Source: Thermoleophilia bacterium SCSIO 60948
GTDB taxonomy: Bacteria > Actinomycetota > Thermoleophilia > Solirubrobacterales > 70-9
Assembly: GCA_021496505.1 (NCBI GenBank)
Contig: CP053031.1
Location: 2,472,001-2,536,000 of the forward strand
Direction: 5' to 3'
DNA: 64,000 bases
A program made the translations under genes and the position numbers. Under the pieces are notes generated by a model, which was not told the origin of the DNA, ran no database searches, and saw only the letters and a list, made by a program, of their open reading frames with translations. Positions 2,201-14,444 of this stretch are shown here, in pieces (positions within the stretch are counted from its first letter, which is position 1; every line of letters starts with the position of its first letter).

Positions 2201-3505
2201 CTACCGCTCGTTGAGACCCGTTGGAATCGGTTCGCGGAGGGCGGTCAGAACCTCCTCGATGGCCGTCCTGATCTCGTCCGACAGGCGGCCTTCTTCGTCG
2301 AGTCGCTCTGCCTCCGTCCACGGCCAGTACCGGCGCACTTCGATCCCCGGGCGGACCATGCCTTTGCGCTTGCCGAGCGCGTCAATGAACGTCGTCAACC
2401 CCTTGTCGTCCGCATCGCTCGCATAACCCCTGGCCTTGAGAGTCGGCCAGATCGCGGTTCGCATGACCTCACCGTCTACCCCATGTAGCAAGCGTCCCAC
2501 GTCGTCTCGCCACTGCGCGATGTACTCGGACAAGTCGCCCGCGTCGAAGCTCGAGCTGAGGTAAAGGGGGCTTCGCGCATTCCAGAACCCCAGGTGAGGA
2601 TTTGGCCGGCCTCGCCAGACATCCGGAGCGGAATCAACGAGTTCAAGGAGCCGCTCACACCGATCGGAGGTGTAGAACGTCACTGCCTGACCCTTCAGCT
2701 CGGACGGCCACGTAGACAACACTAGGTATCCCTCAAGAGCCTCGAGAGCGATGCGTTGAGTCGACCTGGATCTCTCGATGAGCAATTCCGCGCCCGAATC
2801 CCCGCGGGTACGAACACCGTCGACAGTCACGACGCCCCGAAGAAGCGCCGTAATTCTCTTCTGGCGACGTTTGGCGTTATCGCCCGCTCGGCGAAGACTC
2901 GTGAACGGGAGCAAATCGGGGAAGTGATCTTCGCCGAAATCAAAGAAGTCGGTTATCAGCGCTGTTTCGGCAGGGCCCAAGCGGCCGGTCTCTGAAAGGT
3001 TCCACCAGTCCTCAAGGAGCCGGTGCCAGCTCAACCCTTCCGCGCGCGAACTGGCCGGCTGAACGCCCTCAAGGCCCAGGTGGGTCACCTGTTTGGTTTC
3101 GCGGCCCTCGAAGATTTTCGATTCAACCGCGATCACGAGGCGACTGCCAAAACGAAGGACGCCGTCCAAACGCTGTCCTTCTCCCTCACGCTCCACTATC
3201 TCACTGGAGCTGAGATCCACATCCTCGTCCGGCGACAGGAACACGCTGAGCAATTCGTCAACCAGCGGGCCTTCGACCTCGCCTTGCGCCGCCGCCGCCC
3301 GATGGTCAGCGGCGAAGACATGGCTCGTTTGCATGTCGACCTCGAGGCCCGGCAGCTGCGCAAGTGGATCCGCTCTCACTCGCCTCAGAAACGCGTCGCA
3401 CGCCGGCGGCACCGTTCGCATAACGATCATGGCGGCCCGGGTGAGCTGATCTTCGTGGCCTGGAGATCCGCTATAGGCGCGGAAAGCGTTCAGATGTCTA
3501 TTCAT
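2201..3505 (-). CDS. PD-(D/E)XK nuclease-like protein
   Basis: A 434-residue protein with a recognisable PD-(D/E)XK signature near residues 111-140: D114 in RLDGVL, a beta-strand with alternating hydrophobics, then E128-S-K130 in AVESK. A conserved-looking helix with E18 precedes it. This is the Mg2+-binding core of many restriction, repair and anti-phage nucleases. The remaining 300 residues match no domain I know. The start is taken at 3505 because GGGAG lies 6 nt upstream of that ATG, whereas the alternative ATG at 3511 sits directly against it. It lies in a less GC-rich patch next to an HNH nuclease gene, so a defence or mobile-element role is plausible, but nothing in the sequence shows it. 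3506-3689 upstream is non-coding. Confidence 0.6.
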   Translation of the reverse strand: MNRHLNAFRAYSGSPGHEDQLTRAAMIVMRTVPPACDAFLRRVRADPLAQLPGLEVDMQTSHVFAADHRAAAAQGEVEGPLVDELLSVFLSPDEDVDLSSSEIVEREGEGQRLDGVLRFGSRLVIAVESKIFEGRETKQVTHLGLEGVQPASSRAEGLSWHRLLEDWWNLSETGRLGPAETALITDFFDFGEDHFPDLLPFTSLRRAGDNAKRRQKRITALLRGVVTVDGVRTRGDSGAELLIERSRSTQRIALEALEGYLVLSTWPSELKGQAVTFYTSDRCERLLELVDSAPDVWRGRPNPHLGFWNARSPLYLSSSFDAGDLSEYIAQWRDDVGRLLHGVDGEVMRTAIWPTLKARGYASDADDKGLTTFIDALGKRKGMVRPGIEVRRYWPWTEAERLDEEGRLSDEIRTAIEEVLTALREPIPTGLNER

Positions 3506-3689
3506 GACCATCTCCCTTAGCTACTGACGGCAGGCCGAGGATGCCGAACTCGCTCGCTCGTTCAGCATCAGACGGTCCGGCGAGCGCGGAGCGTTCCGCG
3601 GGCGCAAAGCCAACCCAGGCGCCTGTGTCGCTCGGTTCACATCGTTCCAACACATTCGAAGGAGACAGACGGAGGGACGCCGGATCCCT

Positions 3690-4772
3690 TCAGGCGTGCG
3701 CCAGGCTCCGTTCGATCGCGCCGCGAGATCCCCGCATCGCCTCGAAATTCCCCGGCCCACGCCACAACAACGCGTCCTGCGGCAGCGCCAAATACGTCGC
3801 CCGCGCCAGACCCGTCGTTCTGCCGCGGTCGTGCTCCCACGACTGCTGGAGCGCCAGTCCGACGAGGTCCTCTCCGCGTCGCTCGAGCCGCTCGGCCCAG
3901 CGCTCAACGTGAAGCGCCGCGGCTCGATGAGCGCTCTTCGCCGAGTTACAGCGCTTACAGGCAACGACGAGGTTCTCGATCCCATCGTCGAGCGAGTGCG
4001 CGTAAGGAAGGAAATGGTCGACATCGTTTGTCGTGATCGAGCCCGCGCAGTAGAAGCAACGGCGGTTCTGCAACAGGGACAGACCCCGGACGAGCTTTCG
4101 TGGGGGGCGGCGCTGTTGATCAAAGAGGAAGCTCTCGAGCCTCGAGGAATCGAGGTAGTTGCGGTTGAGGCCGGCCACCATCTGGGCCCAGCGACCTTCG
4201 ATCTGCGGGCGAAGCAGCGGCGCCAGGCGAACTAGGTGGTCGGATGCACCGCGGAGGAAGCGGATCTCTCGCGAACTCTGGCGGTAGGACGTTCGCGTTG
4301 TCGTTTCATCCCAGTCGATCTCGTAGAGGAACGGCGCGTAAGGGCGCTGGAGGCGAGGGAGCGGCATCTGTGCGGCGGTCCACTCGACGTCGTCGAGAAG
4401 TCGCGGATAGTCGGGGCTTTGCTTGACCGAGTGGATTGACGCGGTCGGGGAGTAGCCGCCGACGGCACGGATCTCGGAGAGCCGCGAGACTATGACGGCC
4501 TTCTTGTTACCGCTCTGGCGCAGAAGCACTGGGCCCGAACGCCCCGGGAACCGCGCCGTCTGCGGCCAATAGATCTCGAGCATCCGCGCGGCGACCGTCG
4601 CGACGCTCAATCGGTCGGGTGCACGGCCGTCCGGACCCGTTCCCTCCCTTGCGCGGTCGATCAGCGCGAGCAGGAGACCGAACTTGTAGGTCGTCGAGAA
4701 GCTCGCCTCGTCGAGCAGTCCTAGAACCTTCGTCCCGAATGAAATCAGCGTGTCGTGTTGCGGCTTACTCAT
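3690..4772 (-). CDS. HNH endonuclease domain protein
   Basis: A 360-residue protein whose C-terminal third contains an HNH (McrA-type) nuclease site. A zinc knuckle is formed by C239/C242 and C272/C275, with the catalytic DVDH motif ending at H253, N267 in ENLVVAC, and N276 following the last cysteine. The 230 residues before it are alpha-helical, lack a recognised domain, and probably provide specificity or partner binding. The ATG at 4772 overlaps the end of the HIT gene by 8 nt, so translation is coupled. A longer reading frame up to 4961 runs through the HIT gene and is not used. HNH proteins of this layout occur in restriction, homing and phage-defence systems; the direct neighbours make a small nuclease operon likely. 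Confidence 0.8.
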   Translation of the reverse strand: MSKPQHDTLISFGTKVLGLLDEASFSTTYKFGLLLALIDRAREGTGPDGRAPDRLSVATVAARMLEIYWPQTARFPGRSGPVLLRQSGNKKAVIVSRLSEIRAVGGYSPTASIHSVKQSPDYPRLLDDVEWTAAQMPLPRLQRPYAPFLYEIDWDETTTRTSYRQSSREIRFLRGASDHLVRLAPLLRPQIEGRWAQMVAGLNRNYLDSSRLESFLFDQQRRPPRKLVRGLSLLQNRRCFYCAGSITTNDVDHFLPYAHSLDDGIENLVVACKRCNSAKSAHRAAALHVERWAERLERRGEDLVGLALQQSWEHDRGRTTGLARATYLALPQDALLWRGPGNFEAMRGSRGAIERSLAHA

Positions 4773-5187
4773 TCCAGTAGGCCGCCCGGTGTGGCAAGAC
4801 CCAGCGCACGCCGCCGCGCGGATCCGCCACATCGCCTTCGTAGCGCGGAATAAGGTGGATGTGAGCGTGAGCGACCGTCTGACCGGCAGACGCCCCGATG
4901 TTGGCTCCGACGTTGATCCCGGCCGCCTCCAGCTCGCGCCGGAGGGTTGCCGCGAGCGCATCCGCGAGGGCCCAAAGATCCGAGCGCTCCTCGTCAGGCA
5001 GAGCCATCAGATCGGTCTCGTGGCGACGCGGAACCACCAGGCTGTGGCCTTCGCTCAGCGGAAATTCGTCGGCGAAGGCGGCCGAGTACTCGGTTTCGGC
5101 GACGAGACTGTCCGTCGCGGCGACTCGGGCACAGAGGACGCAGGGTGCGCCTTCTGGACCGCGCTCATCTGAGGCCGAAGCACTCAC
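4765..5187 (-). CDS. HIT family hydrolase
   Basis: A 140-residue histidine-triad protein, about the normal size of the family. The active-site motif is seen as H107-x-H109-x-H111 (AHAHIHLIP), with the GHSLVVPRRH strand pair earlier (H48, H56) and a CxxC zinc pair at C16/C19 as in Fhit/HINT relatives. HIT enzymes hydrolyse or transfer nucleotide phosphoramidates, dinucleoside polyphosphates or nucleotide sugars. The start is a GTG at 5187 that overlaps the TGA of the upstream wHTH gene by 4 nt (GTGA). It also overlaps the HNH gene by 8 nt. The coupling wHTH-HIT-HNH is unusual for a housekeeping HIT and suggests that a nucleotide substrate is handled together with the nuclease. Confidence 0.85.
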   Translation of the reverse strand: MSASASDERGPEGAPCVLCARVAATDSLVAETEYSAAFADEFPLSEGHSLVVPRRHETDLMALPDEERSDLWALADALAATLRRELEAAGINVGANIGASAGQTVAHAHIHLIPRYEGDVADPRGGVRWVLPHRAAYWNE

Positions 5188-5510
5188 CCGATCGAGTCGA
5201 CCAAGTGCGCCGCCTCGTCGGGCATGAGATAACGGCAGAAACCGGCGCCCGACTCGTCGATCTCGAAAGGCCAGGAGGGCTTTCCGCGCCGATCGGTGAC
5301 GCCCATGGCGTGCGTCGTCCTTCCCAGAGCGCTTAGAGCCCCGCGAACATTCCGGTGGCTTTCCCAGCCGAGACGATCCGCGATCTTCTCGGTGGTCGTA
5401 TTCGGATTCCGGGCGATCTCGACGACGACCGACCACTGGCGAGCAGAGGCGCGCCCGTGAAGCTCGCGGATGTCCTCGGCGCTCCAGCCCCTACATAGAT
5501 CCTTCGCCAT
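5184..5510 (-). CDS. Winged-helix DNA-binding-like protein
   Basis: A 108-residue protein. Residues 20-75 look like a winged helix: SARQWSVVVEIARNP, a TTTEKIADRLG recognition-type helix pair, then RGALSALGR followed by a strand-rich wing. It resembles MarR/ArsR-scale regulators in length but not convincingly in sequence. It is first in a tightly coupled trio: its TGA overlaps the GTG of the HIT gene by 4 nt. As the promoter-proximal gene with a DNA-binding-like fold it could regulate the operon, which is inference only. A short gap of 65 bp separates it from the next gene upstream. Confidence 0.6.
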   Translation of the reverse strand: MAKDLCRGWSAEDIRELHGRASARQWSVVVEIARNPNTTTEKIADRLGWESHRNVRGALSALGRTTHAMGVTDRRGKPSWPFEIDESGAGFCRYLMPDEAAHLVDSIG

Positions 5511-5575
5511 GCGCGGCAGCGTAAGCAGGCGAGCCGTGTCATGCGCCGACGCCCGGGTGGCGCGAGGGAGATCAC

Positions 5576-5971
5576 CTATGTCGGGTATCGGCGGAAGTAG
5601 TCGTCCATCCGCACGCGCGCCAGCTTCAGTGTTGGCGCGGAGAAGAGTCGGTGGTAGGGCTTCGTCTCGTCAAGGACCAGTGTCTCGAGCATCAGATCGG
5701 GTCGGCGCGCTGCCTCAAGGTGCCCGAAGCCGAGGGTCGGGGGCCTGATGATCTTCGCGACCGCCGGGACGAGCAATCCGTCGGCGTGACCGCGATCGAT
5801 CTGCTGCTTGAAGCGGGTGGCCGCGTACTTTTGGGTGCTGCCATCCTTGCGCTCGATCGTGACCTCCTCGCGCGCACGATCGTAAATCTCGAGCGCATCG
5901 CGGTAGAGCTGCTCCAGGGCGGCCGTCGGCTCCTGCGAATCGTCCAGCGGTGGCATCAGCCGATCATCCAT
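5576..5971 (-). CDS. Hypothetical protein
   Basis: A 131-residue soluble protein that I do not recognise. The N-terminal half is helical with many acidic residues (EQLYRDALEIYDRAREEV), followed by a basic segment (KDGSTQKYAATRFKQQI) and a mixed C-terminal half ending in RVRMDDYFRRYPT. No signal peptide, membrane segment or cysteine motif is present. The ATG overlaps the stop of the histidine phosphatase gene upstream by 8 nt, so these two are translationally coupled. A small helper or DNA-binding role is conceivable but unsupported. Confidence 0.55.
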   Translation of the reverse strand: MDDRLMPPLDDSQEPTAALEQLYRDALEIYDRAREEVTIERKDGSTQKYAATRFKQQIDRGHADGLLVPAVAKIIRPPTLGFGHLEAARRPDLMLETLVLDETKPYHRLFSAPTLKLARVRMDDYFRRYPT

Positions 5972-6632
5972 TCCTCGGAAGGCCCGGCGGCAGGTTCACC
6001 GCCAACACCTGGTGCGGAGGCTTTGGGTACCACTTCAAGACCAGCGCGTGGCAGTTGTCAAGCTTGAGCCGGCGGCTGTACTTCGGGTCCGTTCCGGCAA
6101 ACACGCAGGCCATTATCCGTAGCAGACCGCCGTGCGAGAAGCAGACATAGCGGCCCGGCTTTGCCTCGAGCGTTGCGAGGAACTCCGCCGCCTTGGCGGC
6201 CGAGAACGCGATCGGCTCGGCGCCCTCCGGCGCGACTGGGTCCTCCTCGTCCATATAGGCATCGAACAGCGGCGAGAGCTCATGCGTGCCGGCCCAGAGC
6301 TCGTCGAAGGACTGCCCCTCGAAGGGACCGGCTGCCGGCTCGGTCAGGCGCTCGTCGATTTCCGGCGTGATGGCCAGATCGGCGAGGGCCAGCTCCGCGG
6401 TGCGACGTGCGCGCAGGAGCGGTGAGGTGTACGCGGCATCGAGCGCGATCGAACCGAGGACGGGCGCGAGTGACCTCGCGGCCTCCTCGCCCGCTGCCGA
6501 CAGCCTGACGTCGGTGTCGGTAGATGCGATCCCGGAATCGTTGTCGGACGTCGTGCCGTGACGGATCGCGATCAGGCAGTGTTCGTTTCGCTCGGCCGCT
6601 CGAGTCCAGGTGAAGGCGTCCATCGGCCGCAT
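5964..6632 (-). CDS. Histidine phosphatase (phosphoglycerate mutase-like) family protein
   Basis: A 222-residue member of the RHG phosphatase branch. The phosphohistidine motif R24-H25-G26 lies in LIAIRHGTT, the second-site arginine is in SPLLRARRTAE, the acidic patch is at EPAAGPFEGQSFDEL, and the second catalytic histidine is H167 in CFSHGG. These residues together form the phosphate pocket, so the enzyme should be active. Substrates in this family range from sugar phosphates to nucleotides and proteins, and none can be assigned here. The next gene starts 8 nt inside its 3' end. A second ATG at 6623 is an alternative start. Confidence 0.85.
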   Translation of the reverse strand: MRPMDAFTWTRAAERNEHCLIAIRHGTTSDNDSGIASTDTDVRLSAAGEEAARSLAPVLGSIALDAAYTSPLLRARRTAELALADLAITPEIDERLTEPAAGPFEGQSFDELWAGTHELSPLFDAYMDEEDPVAPEGAEPIAFSAAKAAEFLATLEAKPGRYVCFSHGGLLRIMACVFAGTDPKYSRRLKLDNCHALVLKWYPKPPHQVLAVNLPPGLPRNG

Positions 6633-9983: not shown

Positions 9984-11669
9984 TCAGTCCACCGGCCGGC
10001 CCTTGAGCTGCAACCCGATCTCGTCGGCGTCGAGCGTCGCGAGCACGGCCTCGATCGCCTCGGCGCTAAGCAGGCCGTCGTCGCGGGCGTCGAGGATGGC
10101 CTCGCGCTGTGCGCGGATCACTGCGATCCGCGTTCGCTTGACGTCGTCGGTCGCGGCGCGGTCGCCTGAGCCGCTCAGCGCGGCGAGTGCGTCGCGCTCG
10201 GAATCCGAGACGTCGGCGGCGCCGGTCACGTCACCCGCTGCTCGCTCGAGCAGCGCCATGATCTGGCTCCGTTCCTCGCGATTCGCCTCCTCAGGCGCAC
10301 CCTCGCCCGCCCGCGCCCAGGCCAGTACGCGCGGCAGCGAGAGGCCCTGGACGAGCAACGATGCGGTCGCGACGAGGAACGCGATCAGGACGAGGAGCGA
10401 GCGGTCGGGGGTGTCGGCGGGCAGCGTCTGGGCGGCGGCGACCGTCACCGCGCCGCGCATCCCGGCCCACACGATCACGGTCCCGTCGCGGTCGCCGAGC
10501 GGCTGGGAGAGGAAGTAGTCGATGTCCGACGTCGCTCGCCGGATCCGTGTGCGGGCGCGCTCGATTCGCCGCGGCGACGGCTCGCGTCCCGAGCCGAAAC
10601 CGCGGCGGCTCTCGGCGAGCTTCTTCGGGTCGTCGAGGCGCTCCTCGAAGGACGCGAGCCGCGGCTTCATCGCCTCTCCCCTCTTGGCTCGGCGCCGCAG
10701 CCGCCCGAGCAGGGCCTTGACGTAGACGCCGCGGACGAACAGCGCGATCGCGAGCGAGGCGGCCGCGAGAGCGAAGGCCGTGGCGATCCCGTCGTCGCTC
10801 GCCTCGACGTCGGCGAACAGGGCGTAGAACTCGAGTCCCATCACTAGGAACACACCGCCCTCGAGCACGAACTCGACGGTCTGCCAGTTGACGCGATCGG
10901 ACATCCGATGCTCGGGCGAGAGCTTTCGCGGCCCCGAGTAGCCCGTGACGAGTCCCGCGACGACCGCCGCTACGAGTCCCGAGGCGCCGAGCTCGTCGGC
11001 GGGGATCGCGGCGAGGAACGGGACGGTGAACGAGATCACGGTGTTGACCGTCGGGTCGGAGACCCGCGAGCGAACGGCGAGGTTGAGGTTCCCGACGAGC
11101 AGACCGATCGCCGCGGCGATCCCGACCGCGACCGCGAAGTCGGCGATCACGCCGCCGACCGAGATCGACGCGCCCGCCGCGGCAACGGCGGCGCGCAGCA
11201 AGACGAGCGCGGTCGCGTCGTTCAGCAGGCTCTCGCCCTCCAGCACCGTCGCCACCCAGGGCCGCACGCCGGCGCGCTTGGCGATCTTCGTCGCGACGGC
11301 GTCCGTCGGGCTGACGATCGCCCCGAGCGCGATCGCGAAGCCGAGGTCGAGATCGGGCACGACCCAGTTGAGGAACAGGCCGATCAGCGTCGCGCTCGCG
11401 AGGACGAGCAGCACCGATAGACCGGCGATCGGCCGGAATTCGCGGCGGAAGCTCGTCGCCGGCATCTGGACCGCGGTGGCGTAGAGGAGCGGCGGCAGGA
11501 CGCCGCCGATGATCCATTCGGGGTCGACCTCGACCTCGGGGACGAACGGCAGCGAGCTGATCGCGATCCCGGTCAGGACGAGGAGCAACGGCGCGGCCAC
11601 GCCGAGCCGTGGTTCGAGGACGCTCGCGGCGGCGATCACGAGCAGTCCGGCGAGGACGAGGAGCTCCAC
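9984..11669 (-). CDS. Na+/H+ antiporter, CPA1 (NhaP/NHE) family
   Basis: A 561-residue membrane protein with about 12 hydrophobic segments in the first 400 residues. The CPA1 signature is plain: GAIVSPTDAVATKIAK with the ion-site Asp, then VLEGESLLNDATALVL containing the conserved ExxxND. A cytoplasmic loop of about 80 residues rich in Arg/Glu interrupts the last helices, and a C-terminal helical tail carries a SARP-free regulatory region. It should exchange Na+ or K+ for protons at the cytoplasmic membrane. The ATG at 11669 is about 115 bp from the divergent oxidoreductase gene, and this spacer must hold both promoters. Confidence 0.93.
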   Translation of the reverse strand: MELLVLAGLLVIAAASVLEPRLGVAAPLLLVLTGIAISSLPFVPEVEVDPEWIIGGVLPPLLYATAVQMPATSFRREFRPIAGLSVLLVLASATLIGLFLNWVVPDLDLGFAIALGAIVSPTDAVATKIAKRAGVRPWVATVLEGESLLNDATALVLLRAAVAAAGASISVGGVIADFAVAVGIAAAIGLLVGNLNLAVRSRVSDPTVNTVISFTVPFLAAIPADELGASGLVAAVVAGLVTGYSGPRKLSPEHRMSDRVNWQTVEFVLEGGVFLVMGLEFYALFADVEASDDGIATAFALAAASLAIALFVRGVYVKALLGRLRRRAKRGEAMKPRLASFEERLDDPKKLAESRRGFGSGREPSPRRIERARTRIRRATSDIDYFLSQPLGDRDGTVIVWAGMRGAVTVAAAQTLPADTPDRSLLVLIAFLVATASLLVQGLSLPRVLAWARAGEGAPEEANREERSQIMALLERAAGDVTGAADVSDSERDALAALSGSGDRAATDDVKRTRIAVIRAQREAILDARDDGLLSAEAIEAVLATLDADEIGLQLKGRPVD

Positions 11670-11783
11670 GAAACGAATTCTGTCCGTCGCGACCTGAGCG
11701 CGCCCTCAACTACGGCGGCCGGTGAGGAACCGCGACCTCGGCGCCACGACTATCCGGATGCGCGCAACGGGTAGTCGGAGAGC

Positions 11784-12479
11784 ATGAAGATCGGAATCAT
11801 CGGAGCAGGCAACATCGGCGGCGTCCTCGCGAAGCGGTTCACCGAACTCGGCCACGAGGTCGAGATCGCGAACTCGCGCGGCCCGGACACGCTCGGCGAG
11901 ATCGCCAAGCGGACCGGAGCGACCCCGGTCGAGGTCACCGACGCGCCTCGCGACAAGGAGGTCGTCGTCGTGACGATCCCGATGGTCAACGTGCCCGACC
12001 TGCCCGACGGGCTGTTCGACGACGCGCCCGAGGGCCAGGTCGTCGTCGACACCTGCAACTACTACCCGCGCCAGCGCGACGGCGCGATCGACGCGCTCGA
12101 GCAGGGCACGCTCGAGTCGGTCTGGGTCTCAGAGCAGATCGGGCGCCCGGTGATCAAGGCGTTCAACAACATCTACTTTTCGAGCCTCGACGCGGGCGGC
12201 AAGCCGGCCGGCGCCGAGGATCGGATCGCGCTGCCGGTCTCGGGCGACGACGAGGGTCAGAAGGGCGTCGTCATCGGGCTGATCGACGATCTCGGCTTCG
12301 ACGCGGTCGACGTCGGCTCGCTCGAGGATTCGTGGCGCCAGCAGCCCGGCACCCCGGTCTACACCGCCGATGGCGACGCCGCCGAGGTCCGCGAGGCGCT
12401 CGACGCCGCTTCGCGCGAGCGCCCAGAGGAGTTCACCGCGACCTCCGACAGCCCCGGGAGCTTCAACTCGCCGGCCTGA
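11784..12479 (+). CDS. NAD(P)-binding oxidoreductase, F420-dependent NADP reductase-like
   Basis: A 231-residue Rossmann protein. The dinucleotide motif GAGNIGG opens the chain (MKIGIIGAGNIGG), followed by NSRGPDTL at the end of the second strand, which favours NADP(H). The rest follows the 'NADP oxidoreductase, coenzyme F420-dependent' family: VVTIPMVNVPDLP, KAFNNI, SGDDEGQKGVV, GLIDDLGFDAVDVG. It precedes the carboxymuconolactone decarboxylase-like gene by 74 bp and that gene is coupled to an ECF41 sigma factor. Oxidoreductases are among the typical partners of ECF41 factors, so the three genes plausibly form one regulated unit. Confidence 0.88.
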   Translation: MKIGIIGAGNIGGVLAKRFTELGHEVEIANSRGPDTLGEIAKRTGATPVEVTDAPRDKEVVVVTIPMVNVPDLPDGLFDDAPEGQVVVDTCNYYPRQRDGAIDALEQGTLESVWVSEQIGRPVIKAFNNIYFSSLDAGGKPAGAEDRIALPVSGDDEGQKGVVIGLIDDLGFDAVDVGSLEDSWRQQPGTPVYTADGDAAEVREALDAASRERPEEFTATSDSPGSFNSPA

Positions 12480-12553
12480 CCCAGGGCCTCCTGTCACATC
12501 CGCGTCCCCGGCGGTGTCCCCTTGTCGAGAGTCACCGACCGAGAGGACGCGAG

Positions 12554-13150
12554 ATGTCGACAAGAGCACGGATTCCGCAGTCGCAGGTAACGGGCCCCTA
12601 CGGGGCGCTCGTCAAGCGGATGGGCAAGAAGATGGGCGGCGGCGAACTGCCGGAGGGCGTCGGGGTCATGTGGCACAACCGCAAGGTCCTCAACTTCGGC
12701 TTCGGCCTCGGCCGCAAGTCCGACAAGTGGGACGCCTGCGACGACAGCCTCAAGGCCTACGCCTCGATGGCCGCGGCGGCGAAGATCGGCTGCGAGTTCT
12801 GCCTCGACCTCCACTACTTCAAGGTCCACAACGAGGGCATGGACGAGCGCAAGGCGCGCGAGGTGCCGCGGTGGCGCGAGTCGGACGTGTTCACTCCGCT
12901 CGAGCGCGACGCGATGGAATACGCCGAGGCGATGAGCGCCACCCCGCCGACCGTGACCGACGAGCTGTCCGACCGGCTGCTCGCTCAGATCGGACCGGCC
13001 GCCCTGGTCGAACTCGCCGCCTCGATCGCGCTGATGAACTTCTACTCGCGCTCGAACGTCGCGCTCGGGATCAGCGCCCACGGGTTCGCCGCCTCGTGTG
13101 ACCTCGCGCCGCTCGCGCGGCCGAGTGAGCCCGTAGCCTCGGCCGCATGA
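12554..13150 (+). CDS. Carboxymuconolactone decarboxylase family protein (AhpD-like)
   Basis: A 198-residue protein of the CMD/AhpD fold. The characteristic redox or proton-relay motif appears as AAAAKIGCEFCLDLHYF, a CxxC with the following His. Residues after that are helical, with EAMSATPPTVTDELSDRL and an aromatic end. The start ATG at 12554 is preceded by GAGAGGACGCGAG, a good ribosome site. Its TGA overlaps the ATG of the sigma factor gene by 4 nt (ATGA). Genes of this family are the best-known neighbours and probable targets of ECF41 sigma factors; here the coupling is at the level of translation. Confidence 0.9.
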   Translation: MSTRARIPQSQVTGPYGALVKRMGKKMGGGELPEGVGVMWHNRKVLNFGFGLGRKSDKWDACDDSLKAYASMAAAAKIGCEFCLDLHYFKVHNEGMDERKAREVPRWRESDVFTPLERDAMEYAEAMSATPPTVTDELSDRLLAQIGPAALVELAASIALMNFYSRSNVALGISAHGFAASCDLAPLARPSEPVASAA

Positions 13151-14037
13151 CCAGCGAAGTCGAGGGCGATCCGTTCGCCCGGCATCGCAGCCTGCTGTTC
13201 ACGGTCGCCTACGAGATGCTCGGCTCGGCGGCGGACGCCGAGGACGTGGTGCAGGAGGCGTGGATCCGCTGGGACGCGCTCGGCGAAGAGCGGCGTGCGG
13301 AGGTCCGCGACCCGCGCGCCTACCTCGTGCAGGTCGCAACGCGGCAGGCGCTCAATCGGCTGCGGACCGTCTCGCGCCGGCGCGAGGAGTACTTCGGTGA
13401 GTGGCTGCCTGAGCCGGTGCGGACGAGCCCCGACGTCGCCGAGGACGTCGAGCTCGCCGAGGGAGTCTCGCTGGCGATGCTGACCGTGCTCGAGACGCTC
13501 GGCCCGGCCGAGCGCGCGGTCTTCGTGCTGCGCGAGATCTTCGACTTCGGCTACGAGGAGATAGCAACCGCGATCGAGAAGTCACCTGCCGCGGTACGTC
13601 AGATCGCCCACCGCGCCCGCGAGCACGTCGCGGCGCGACGGCCGCGGATGGAGGTCGACCGCGGGGAGCAGGAACGGGTCGTCGAGCGGTTCCTCGCAGC
13701 GATCCAGGGCGGTGACCTCGAGGCGCTGATGGAGGTGCTGGCGCCCGACGTCGTCCTGATCTCCGACGGCGGCGGGATCGCGCAGGCAGCCATCCGGCCG
13801 ATCAGGGGGCAGAAGACGGTCGCGAGGCTGTTGTCTCGGATCGGCGCCGGGCTCGAGGTGAGCGGCATCGGCCTCGTCGCGCTGAACGGGGCCACCGCGG
13901 CCCTGCTCGACATCGAGGGCGACTTCCGCACCGCGATCAACTTCGCGGTCGAGGACGGGCGGATCACACGCATCCTCACGGTCCGCAATCCGGAGAAGCT
14001 GGCGCGGATCGACGAGGTCGCGGAGCTGCGCCGCTAG
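13147..14037 (+). CDS. ECF41-type RNA polymerase sigma factor
   Basis: A 296-residue extracytoplasmic-function sigma factor. Region 2 lies at about 10-75 (LLFTVAYEMLGSAADAEDVVQE, promoter -10 recognition) and region 4 at about 105-165 (LETLGPAERAVFVLREIFDFGYEEIA, -35 recognition). The family-specific traits are all present: WLPEP in the linker (86-90), DGGG (207-210) and NPEKL (281-285) in a SnoaL-like C-terminal domain that replaces an anti-sigma factor. In studied ECF41 members that domain tunes activity. The gene overlaps the CMD-family gene by ATGA, the standard genomic pair for this group. The target promoter was not identified here. Confidence 0.93.
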   Translation: MTSEVEGDPFARHRSLLFTVAYEMLGSAADAEDVVQEAWIRWDALGEERRAEVRDPRAYLVQVATRQALNRLRTVSRRREEYFGEWLPEPVRTSPDVAEDVELAEGVSLAMLTVLETLGPAERAVFVLREIFDFGYEEIATAIEKSPAAVRQIAHRAREHVAARRPRMEVDRGEQERVVERFLAAIQGGDLEALMEVLAPDVVLISDGGGIAQAAIRPIRGQKTVARLLSRIGAGLEVSGIGLVALNGATAALLDIEGDFRTAINFAVEDGRITRILTVRNPEKLARIDEVAELRR

Positions 14038-14069
14038 CGCGAGCCGCACCGGGCCCGGTCACCCGCTGC

Positions 14070-14444
14070 TCAGTCGAGCAGCTCCGTGTCGGCGTCGGAA
14101 TACGGCGGCGAGCAGACGCAGAGCAGAACGAGCGCCGTCCCCTCGGCGGCCCACAGCTTGTGCGAGTGCCCGTGCGGGATCACGACCGCCTGGCCCGCCT
14201 CGACCTCGAACTCGTGCTCGTCGAGTCGCATCCGCCCGCTGCCCGAGGTGAACATGTAGATCTCCTCGGAGGCACGGTGGAGATGCTCGCGGGTCTCGCC
14301 GCCCGCGAAGATCCGCGCCTCAGCGACCGAGCTCGCCTTCGCACCCGACGAGCGCTGAACGAGTTCGCGGACCGCCGATCCATCGGGAGCGATGAGCGGT
14401 GTGGCGGCCGTCGTATCGACGATCCGTGGCTTCAGCGTCGGCAT
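14070..14444 (-). CDS. Cupin domain protein
   Basis: A 124-residue single-cupin protein starting MPTLKPRIVD. The two cupin motifs are visible: HLHRASEEIYMFTSGSG with metal ligands H and E, and GQAVVIPHGHSHKLWA with the third histidine. A single small beta-barrel of this sort binds a metal and often acts as a dioxygenase, isomerase or sensor; the substrate is unknown. The ATG at 14444 was chosen over an upstream frame start at 14501 because residues before it are not cupin-like. It converges on the sigma factor gene across a short spacer containing the palindrome ACCGGGCCCGGT (14048-14059). Confidence 0.85.
   Translation of the reverse strand: MPTLKPRIVDTTAATPLIAPDGSAVRELVQRSSGAKASSVAEARIFAGGETREHLHRASEEIYMFTSGSGRMRLDEHEFEVEAGQAVVIPHGHSHKLWAAEGTALVLLCVCSPPYSDADTELLD

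Follow-up and report, generated by a model that had tools for sequence, protein, structure and literature searches.

A HIT-HNH gene pair as a proposed, hitherto undescribed restriction system directed at DNA with chemical modifications

A locus in the genome of Thermoleophilia bacterium SCSIO 60948 (GCA_021496505.1; one contig of 3.42 Mb, CP053031.1) raises the question of what a HIT-family protein and an HNH nuclease encoded in overlapping genes do together. We analyzed positions 2,472,001-2,536,000 of the forward strand and refer to this whole stretch of 64,000 nt as the window. The original prediction had taken three coupled genes in a less GC-rich patch, coding for a winged-helix, a HIT and an HNH protein, to be a compact defence or toxin-type module.

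Gene layout and conservation of the locus

The three genes are stop-free frames on the minus strand and are joined by overlaps of 4 and 8 nt as described (Table 1). Pfam matches confirmed the identities proposed for the HIT protein and for the HNH protein (HNH_4, 1.2e-8; HNH, 8.1e-8). The patch is also real, with a GC content of 61-67% at 2-8 kb in comparison to 69-76% at 10-20 kb.

Table 1. Positions of features in the window, counted from its first nucleotide
Feature	Positions	Strand	Remark
Possible PD-(D/E)XK nuclease gene	2201-3511		436 aa; D...ESK motif
HNH protein gene	3690-4772	-	360 aa, ATG start; SBD-like N-domain and C-terminal HNH nuclease
HNH core, residues 239-281	3930-4058	-	C239, C242, D252, H253, N267, N276, K279 (Pfam)
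N-domain, residues 8-203	4164-4751	-	best structural matches, at borderline Z, are McrA sulfur-binding domains (SBDs)
M136-P137	4362-4367	-	P137 in 69/69; residue 136 is M in 42, Y in 11 and Q in 8 of 69
Y29-K30	4683-4688	-	invariant (69/69); putatively placed where SBDs carry the H-R/H-K of the sulfur cavity
HIT-family protein gene	4765-5187	-	140 aa, GTG start; Pfam HIT 1.8e-23; PADLOC ThsC2 1.8e-13
Overlap of HIT stop and HNH start, ATGAGTAA	4765-4772	-	8 nt
Histidine triad H107-x-H109-x-H111, HIT protein	4855-4869	-	intact
Overlap of winged-helix-like gene and HIT gene, GTGA	5184-5187	-	4 nt
Winged-helix-like gene	5184-5510	-	108 aa
Gene of a protein without family match	5576-5971		131 aa; 8-nt overlap with the phosphatase gene

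For the lead gene, position and overlap stood as predicted, but its family did not gain the same support. Its best Pfam matches (DUF3489, 9.9e-4; MarR, 0.14) lie below every curated cut-off, and a winged helix is therefore plausible at best. The gene had relatives in 0 of 110 loci (tblastn, 1e-3) and was present in 1 of 198 genomes of a phylum draw, namely its own. With no relative of this gene in the 110 loci or in the 197 other genomes, the trio was rejected as a conserved unit. The search for the same trio elsewhere, which the original prediction had suggested, thus came back empty, and what is conserved is the HIT-HNH pair. The winged-helix-like gene is a local extra outside of the conserved module.

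Adjacent genes were considered as further parts and rejected. The PD-(D/E)XK call for one neighbor (P0004) rests on a motif recognized by eye and matched no family in Pfam, NCBIfam or the best 25 of 55 PADLOC matches; the protein was found in 0 other loci among the 110 (tblastn, 1e-3). Neighbor P0005 was not found in other loci at 1e-3 either. The predicted phosphatase was confirmed (His_Phos_1, 1.2e-36), and the sole relative of this protein (P0006) in the 110 loci lies about 5.5 kb from the HNH gene in genome G103, where loci L052 and L070 overlap and represent one place.

Pairing across genomes and exchange of the partner

We scanned 84,980 named species genomes for the HNH protein and retained the 80 best of the 295 relatives detected. 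HIT genes were placed by profile and not by gene calls, because our own gene caller, in its later version, missed the HIT gene of the window. A HIT gene lies beside the HNH gene in 49 of the 80 loci (best 80 of 295), directly upstream on the same strand in 42 and in other arrangements in 7, of which 4 are convergent and directly downstream; because the query behind the similarity ranking was itself HIT-linked (5 of the 13 rows of its alignment), these shares are not unbiased frequencies. The junction measured 30 nt or less in 41 of the 42 upstream cases, with overlapping genes in 20, and the HxHxHxxP triad was intact in all 49 HIT partners. By record title, the HNH loci belong to Actinomycetota, Myxococcota, Planctomycetota, Acidobacteriota, Elusimicrobia, Beta- and Gammaproteobacteria and others. 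Since distant phyla show the same gene order with equally short distances, we exclude chance as the origin of the HIT-HNH junction.

In an even draw of 396 Actinomycetota genomes, 15 genomes besides the window's own contained a long relative of the HNH protein (E ≤1e-20), and a HIT gene stood beside it in two (G103 and G341). A phage collection held no relative; for viral contigs the figure was 4 of 64 candidate stretches, one of them with a near full-length relative. The reverse test found a close match to the HIT protein in 10 genomes among 386 of the Actinomycetota draw: within the fetched stretches, the HIT was beside an HNH gene in three, fused to a SauUSI-like enzyme in two, and neither in five. 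A methyltransferase-HNH pair is located on an IMG/VR contig classed as viral (L150, positions 9986-10990), and the pair may therefore travel on phage or satellite DNA.

The partner is not always a HIT protein. A TehB-like methyltransferase was detected in 12 of the 80 loci (6 upstream, 5 near, 1 further off), and HIT and methyltransferase occurred together in none of the 80. By its profile matches to Methyltransf_25 and TehB (5.6e-9; TPMT, 1.5e-3, below cut-off), this enzyme is of the small-molecule kind and not a DNA methyltransferase. In a quick tree of 91 HNH proteins, the HIT and methyltransferase labels required at least four changes, including one switch inside a starred pair (HIT in L119, methyltransferase in L138). 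This exclusive and repeated replacement suggests that both partners have equivalent roles. At one further locus, from an uncultured Psychrobacter (L139), a NUDIX hydrolase takes the place of the partner; here HNH, NUDIX (PADLOC PDC-S07, 4.1e-46) and a SauUSI-like enzyme follow in a row (9998-14387). Neither HIT nor methyltransferase was present in 19 of the 80 loci; an upstream sequence that breaks off within 300 nt accounts for only 3 of these. At HIT-less loci (L057, L083 and L104, also L093 and L101), another, distinct HNH-like gene was observed near the HNH gene.

HNH protein, SauUSI-type enzymes and defence genes

The listed residues of the HNH core are invariant or nearly so in 69 sequences, with D252, H253, N267 and N276 invariant. 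Structure prediction gave a confident model of the protein (pLDDT 94.5; N-domain alone, 93.5). Compared with PDB chains, its top four rows were SBDs of SprMcrA and ScoMcrA, with Z values of 8.2, 7.9, 7.7 and 7.5 over 139-141 residues at an rmsd of 3.4-3.6 (best: 7cc9, Z 8.2, 141 aligned), and such values of 7-8 are borderline, within the stated background of the tool. Cas9 HNH domains, IscB and CBASS Cap5 followed, aligned on residues 220-334. The N-domain alone gave SBDs in its top three rows (SprMcrA first; 7ccj, Z 7.2, 133 of 159 residues), followed by the winged helix of human ORC1 (Z 6.7, 100 residues). Foldseek ranked SBDs low for the N-domain (E 2.6), an hmmsearch of its profile against PDB chains had no hit at E ≤10, and hhalign comparisons with 10 SBDs were not significant in local or global mode. 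A comparison of HIT and SBD profiles was used as a rough negative.

The sulfur cavity of SBDs is formed by H116, R117 (mostly K), Y164 (Y164M binds tighter), P165 (the most conserved) and A168, as given in excerpts of PMC6224610. By eye, TYKxALLLAL of the HNH protein resembles APHKPLLLL of SBDs, and MPLPxLQ resembles YPFxxLxSDG. M136-P137 is a candidate counterpart of Y164-P165, proposed by eye and from a short, non-significant hhalign segment.

The phosphorothioate-dependent SBD-HNH restriction enzymes ScoMcrA, SprMcrA and EcoWI share domain order, size, the C-terminal HNH and a sporadic distribution with our protein, and their SBD gives the best, though borderline, structural match to its N-domain. 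Several differences set it apart. Their family profile NF045808, which finds full-length members in other genomes, did not match it at E ≤1; about 60 extra residues separate its two putative pocket motifs; a Tyr (Y29, 69/69) stands at the putative place of the SBD His; its HNH is of the Cas9/IscB type; and it has a HIT or methyltransferase partner, of which the available text of PMC7461809 makes no mention for SBD-HNH enzymes. The HNH protein may work like SBD-HNH enzymes; we leave it outside that family, because the Z values are near background, profiles give no support and the motif likeness was seen by eye.

A second link leads to SauUSI-type enzymes, which combine PLD, helicase and DUF3427 domains and, according to the accessible part of PMC3874153, cleave DNA containing 5mC and 5hmC with ATP. 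In two genomes, proteins of 1330 and 1337 aa have a HIT of the same subfamily as their N-terminal domain, together with PLD, ResIII, helicase C and DUF3427 domains. On a Polaromonas plasmid, a PLD-helicase protein carries the methyltransferase in this N-terminal position. The HIT and methyltransferase fusion enzymes match PADLOC mREase_IV, the SauUSI kind. Both HIT fusions (L190, 1573-5562; L191, 1290-5300) also possess an unusual Peptidase_S24-like segment before DUF3427.

SauUSI-like genes are frequent neighbors of the pair, being present in the flank of 11 of the 80 named HNH loci, with one partial match (L105). In whole genomes (that of the window plus 38 from the 80 loci, chosen once the flanks had been scanned), a SauUSI-like gene was detected at 1e-60 in 12 of 39 and fell within the fetched HNH flank in 6 of these 12 (L095, L112, L117, L139, L148 and L149), with a chance expectation of about 0.06 of 12 (20 kb per ~4-Mb genome). 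The genome of the window yielded no SauUSI-like gene at 1e-60. SauUSI-type enzymes differ from the pair in using another nuclease and an ATP-driven helicase; PLD, ResIII and DUF3427 were absent from the six window proteins at 2201-6632 (Pfam; best 25 of 55 PADLOC matches).

As to the link with defence islands, which the original prediction had proposed to check, HIT-HNH often adjoins restriction or other defence genes. Neighbors of relatives include BREX, a McrBC-like pair with type I RM genes and CRISPR I-Fv. In Noviherbaspirillum aerium SIR2-HerA genes, and in N. galbum a QatA gene, lie close upstream of HIT-HNH (L109, 6313-8991, and L134, 3843-5810, respectively). We compared 137 neighbor proteins of 20 HIT loci (of 49) with 137 control proteins (of 153) from arbitrary places in some of these genomes. 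At 1e-15, the neighbors matched 127 PADLOC families and the controls 3. The contrast counts families and not proteins, many families are redundant kinase models (PD-T4-6) that two members match, and the scan covered genes of up to 900 aa and thereby no SauUSI-like ones. HNH relatives at L072 and L086 stand among ordinary genes, and in Herbaspirillum huttiense (L124, 6469-7512) a HIT-HNH pair directly follows an apparent dnaA-dnaN-gyrB at the start of the chromosome record, as read by eye. Ssp genes accompanied the HNH relative in 1 of 107 loci, and dndC exceeded its cut-off in 1 of 39 genomes tested, a number too small to judge a link with the phosphorothioate writers. The Ssp case, a mere lead, is plasmid pTS1 of Treponema saccharophilum (L049, 183-8924), with the HNH relative divergent to an SspA-SspC-SspB-like phosphorothioation cluster (SspC, 5.9e-128).

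Other described systems share single parts with the pair. Thoeris type II likewise has a HIT accessory protein in a defence operon, ThsC, which the window HIT matches; unlike in Thoeris, no ThsA or ThsB was found among the six window proteins (2201-6632; best 25 of 55 PADLOC matches). Septu and retron PtuB and TIGR02646 HNH proteins resemble the HNH protein in the nuclease core, to which the match is limited, and no PtuA ATPase model was matched by the six window proteins among the best 25 of 55 PADLOC matches. No model in NCBIfam, or among those 25, spans the whole HNH protein. HIT and HNH as one defence system were not found in the open-access literature (without preprints); passages of the PADLOC paper name both domains in different systems. 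The expectation that no described system has exactly this set thereby agrees with PADLOC (best 25 of 55 matches), NCBIfam and the open-access literature.

Proposed function and alternatives

We propose, at a probability of about one half, that the HIT and HNH genes form a type IV-like restriction module which depends on DNA modification and in which the nucleotide-processing partner can be exchanged. The proposal starts from the observed pairing and coupling of the genes, partner exchange, intact catalytic motifs, defence neighborhoods and partner fusion to SauUSI-type enzymes; the mark that is read, the substrate of the HIT protein and the protective role are inferred. Points against it are the borderline SBD similarity, the Tyr in the position of the SBD His, the 19 of 80 loci with neither partner, the HIT share of 2 in 15 in the even Actinomycetota draw and the loci among ordinary genes. 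The HNH protein would read a chemical DNA mark with its SBD-like N-terminal domain, and its HNH domain would cut close to this mark. The HIT enzyme, which is co-translated, would hydrolyze altered nucleotides that are set free by the HNH attack or compete with it. Host DNA would thereby stay free of marked nucleotides, and the host chromosome would be spared by the nuclease. In some lineages the TehB-like methyltransferase, and in one locus the NUDIX hydrolase, would act in place of the HIT enzyme.

The leading candidate for the mark is phosphorothioate. Human HINT1 converts nucleoside 5'-phosphorothioates to nucleotides and H2S, as stated in the available portion of PMC8775712, and by analogy a link between HIT and phosphorothioates would fit an SBD-like reader. 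That SauUSI-type enzymes also make use of HIT suggests a broader range of modified nucleotides, and, because SauUSI reads methylcytosine, a story based on sulfur only is weakened. We consider it doubtful that the module restricts phosphorothioate DNA and also disposes of the sulfur, in such a way that the SBD-like HNH enzyme cuts sulfur-marked DNA, HIT desulfurates the released nucleoside phosphorothioates and the TehB/TPMT-like enzyme that replaces HIT methylates the same sulfur. If true, the restriction enzyme would have a companion devoted to the debris that its attack on the modification leaves behind.

The predicted defence character thus holds for the pair and not for the trio, and a toxin-type module is possible, with weaker support than modification-dependent restriction. 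The HNH protein could be a latent toxin and the HIT or methyltransferase its enzymatic antitoxin, acting by removal or alteration of a nucleotide on which the nuclease depends. A small gene in first place, overlapping junctions, mobile settings and mutually exclusive partners would suit such an arrangement, but 19 of 80 HNH genes, and whole clades, have neither partner nearby, 7 of the 49 HIT genes stand elsewhere than directly upstream, and the HIT and methyltransferase modules are also fused to SauUSI-type restriction enzymes; we regard it as rather unlikely. A signal-controlled effector, in which the N-domain senses a nucleotide signal made during infection and HIT degrades the signal as an off-switch, appears unlikely. 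It could draw on the ThsC2 match, since ThsC is proposed to act on the signal as an off-switch in Thoeris type II (PMC8565338, in part), and on the Cap5 rows of the structure comparison; yet no cyclase, TIR or SIR2 gene is a constant neighbor in the loci read, and the best matches of the N-domain are DNA-binding SBD and winged-helix folds.

The patchy distribution, the plasmids and the restriction-rich neighborhoods argue against a DNA repair pair, in which the nuclease incises damaged DNA and HIT removes adenylate or other blocks from 5' ends, and the swap with a methyltransferase is hard to explain by repair. HIT proteins of the aprataxin-like kind remove adenylate from 5' ends, HIT chemistry acts on nucleotidyl groups, and several pairs stand among ordinary genes, and the Herbaspirillum pair follows the apparent dnaA-dnaN-gyrB; on balance we hold repair to be quite improbable. 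That HIT and HNH are unrelated cargo hitchhiking in mobile regions is very improbable: HIT genes are common and several loci lack the pair, but the tight spacing is kept across phyla despite differing surroundings, and HIT and methyltransferase never co-occur in the 80 loci.

If modification-dependent restriction by HIT-HNH is right, the restriction of modified DNA would comprise more than cutting, and unrelated type IV-like enzymes would draw on common, interchangeable partners (HIT, methyltransferase, NUDIX). It would further assign a testable function to a HIT subfamily that is an orphan and to an HNH family of large size, and would provide a candidate for a new reader of marks on the DNA backbone or bases.
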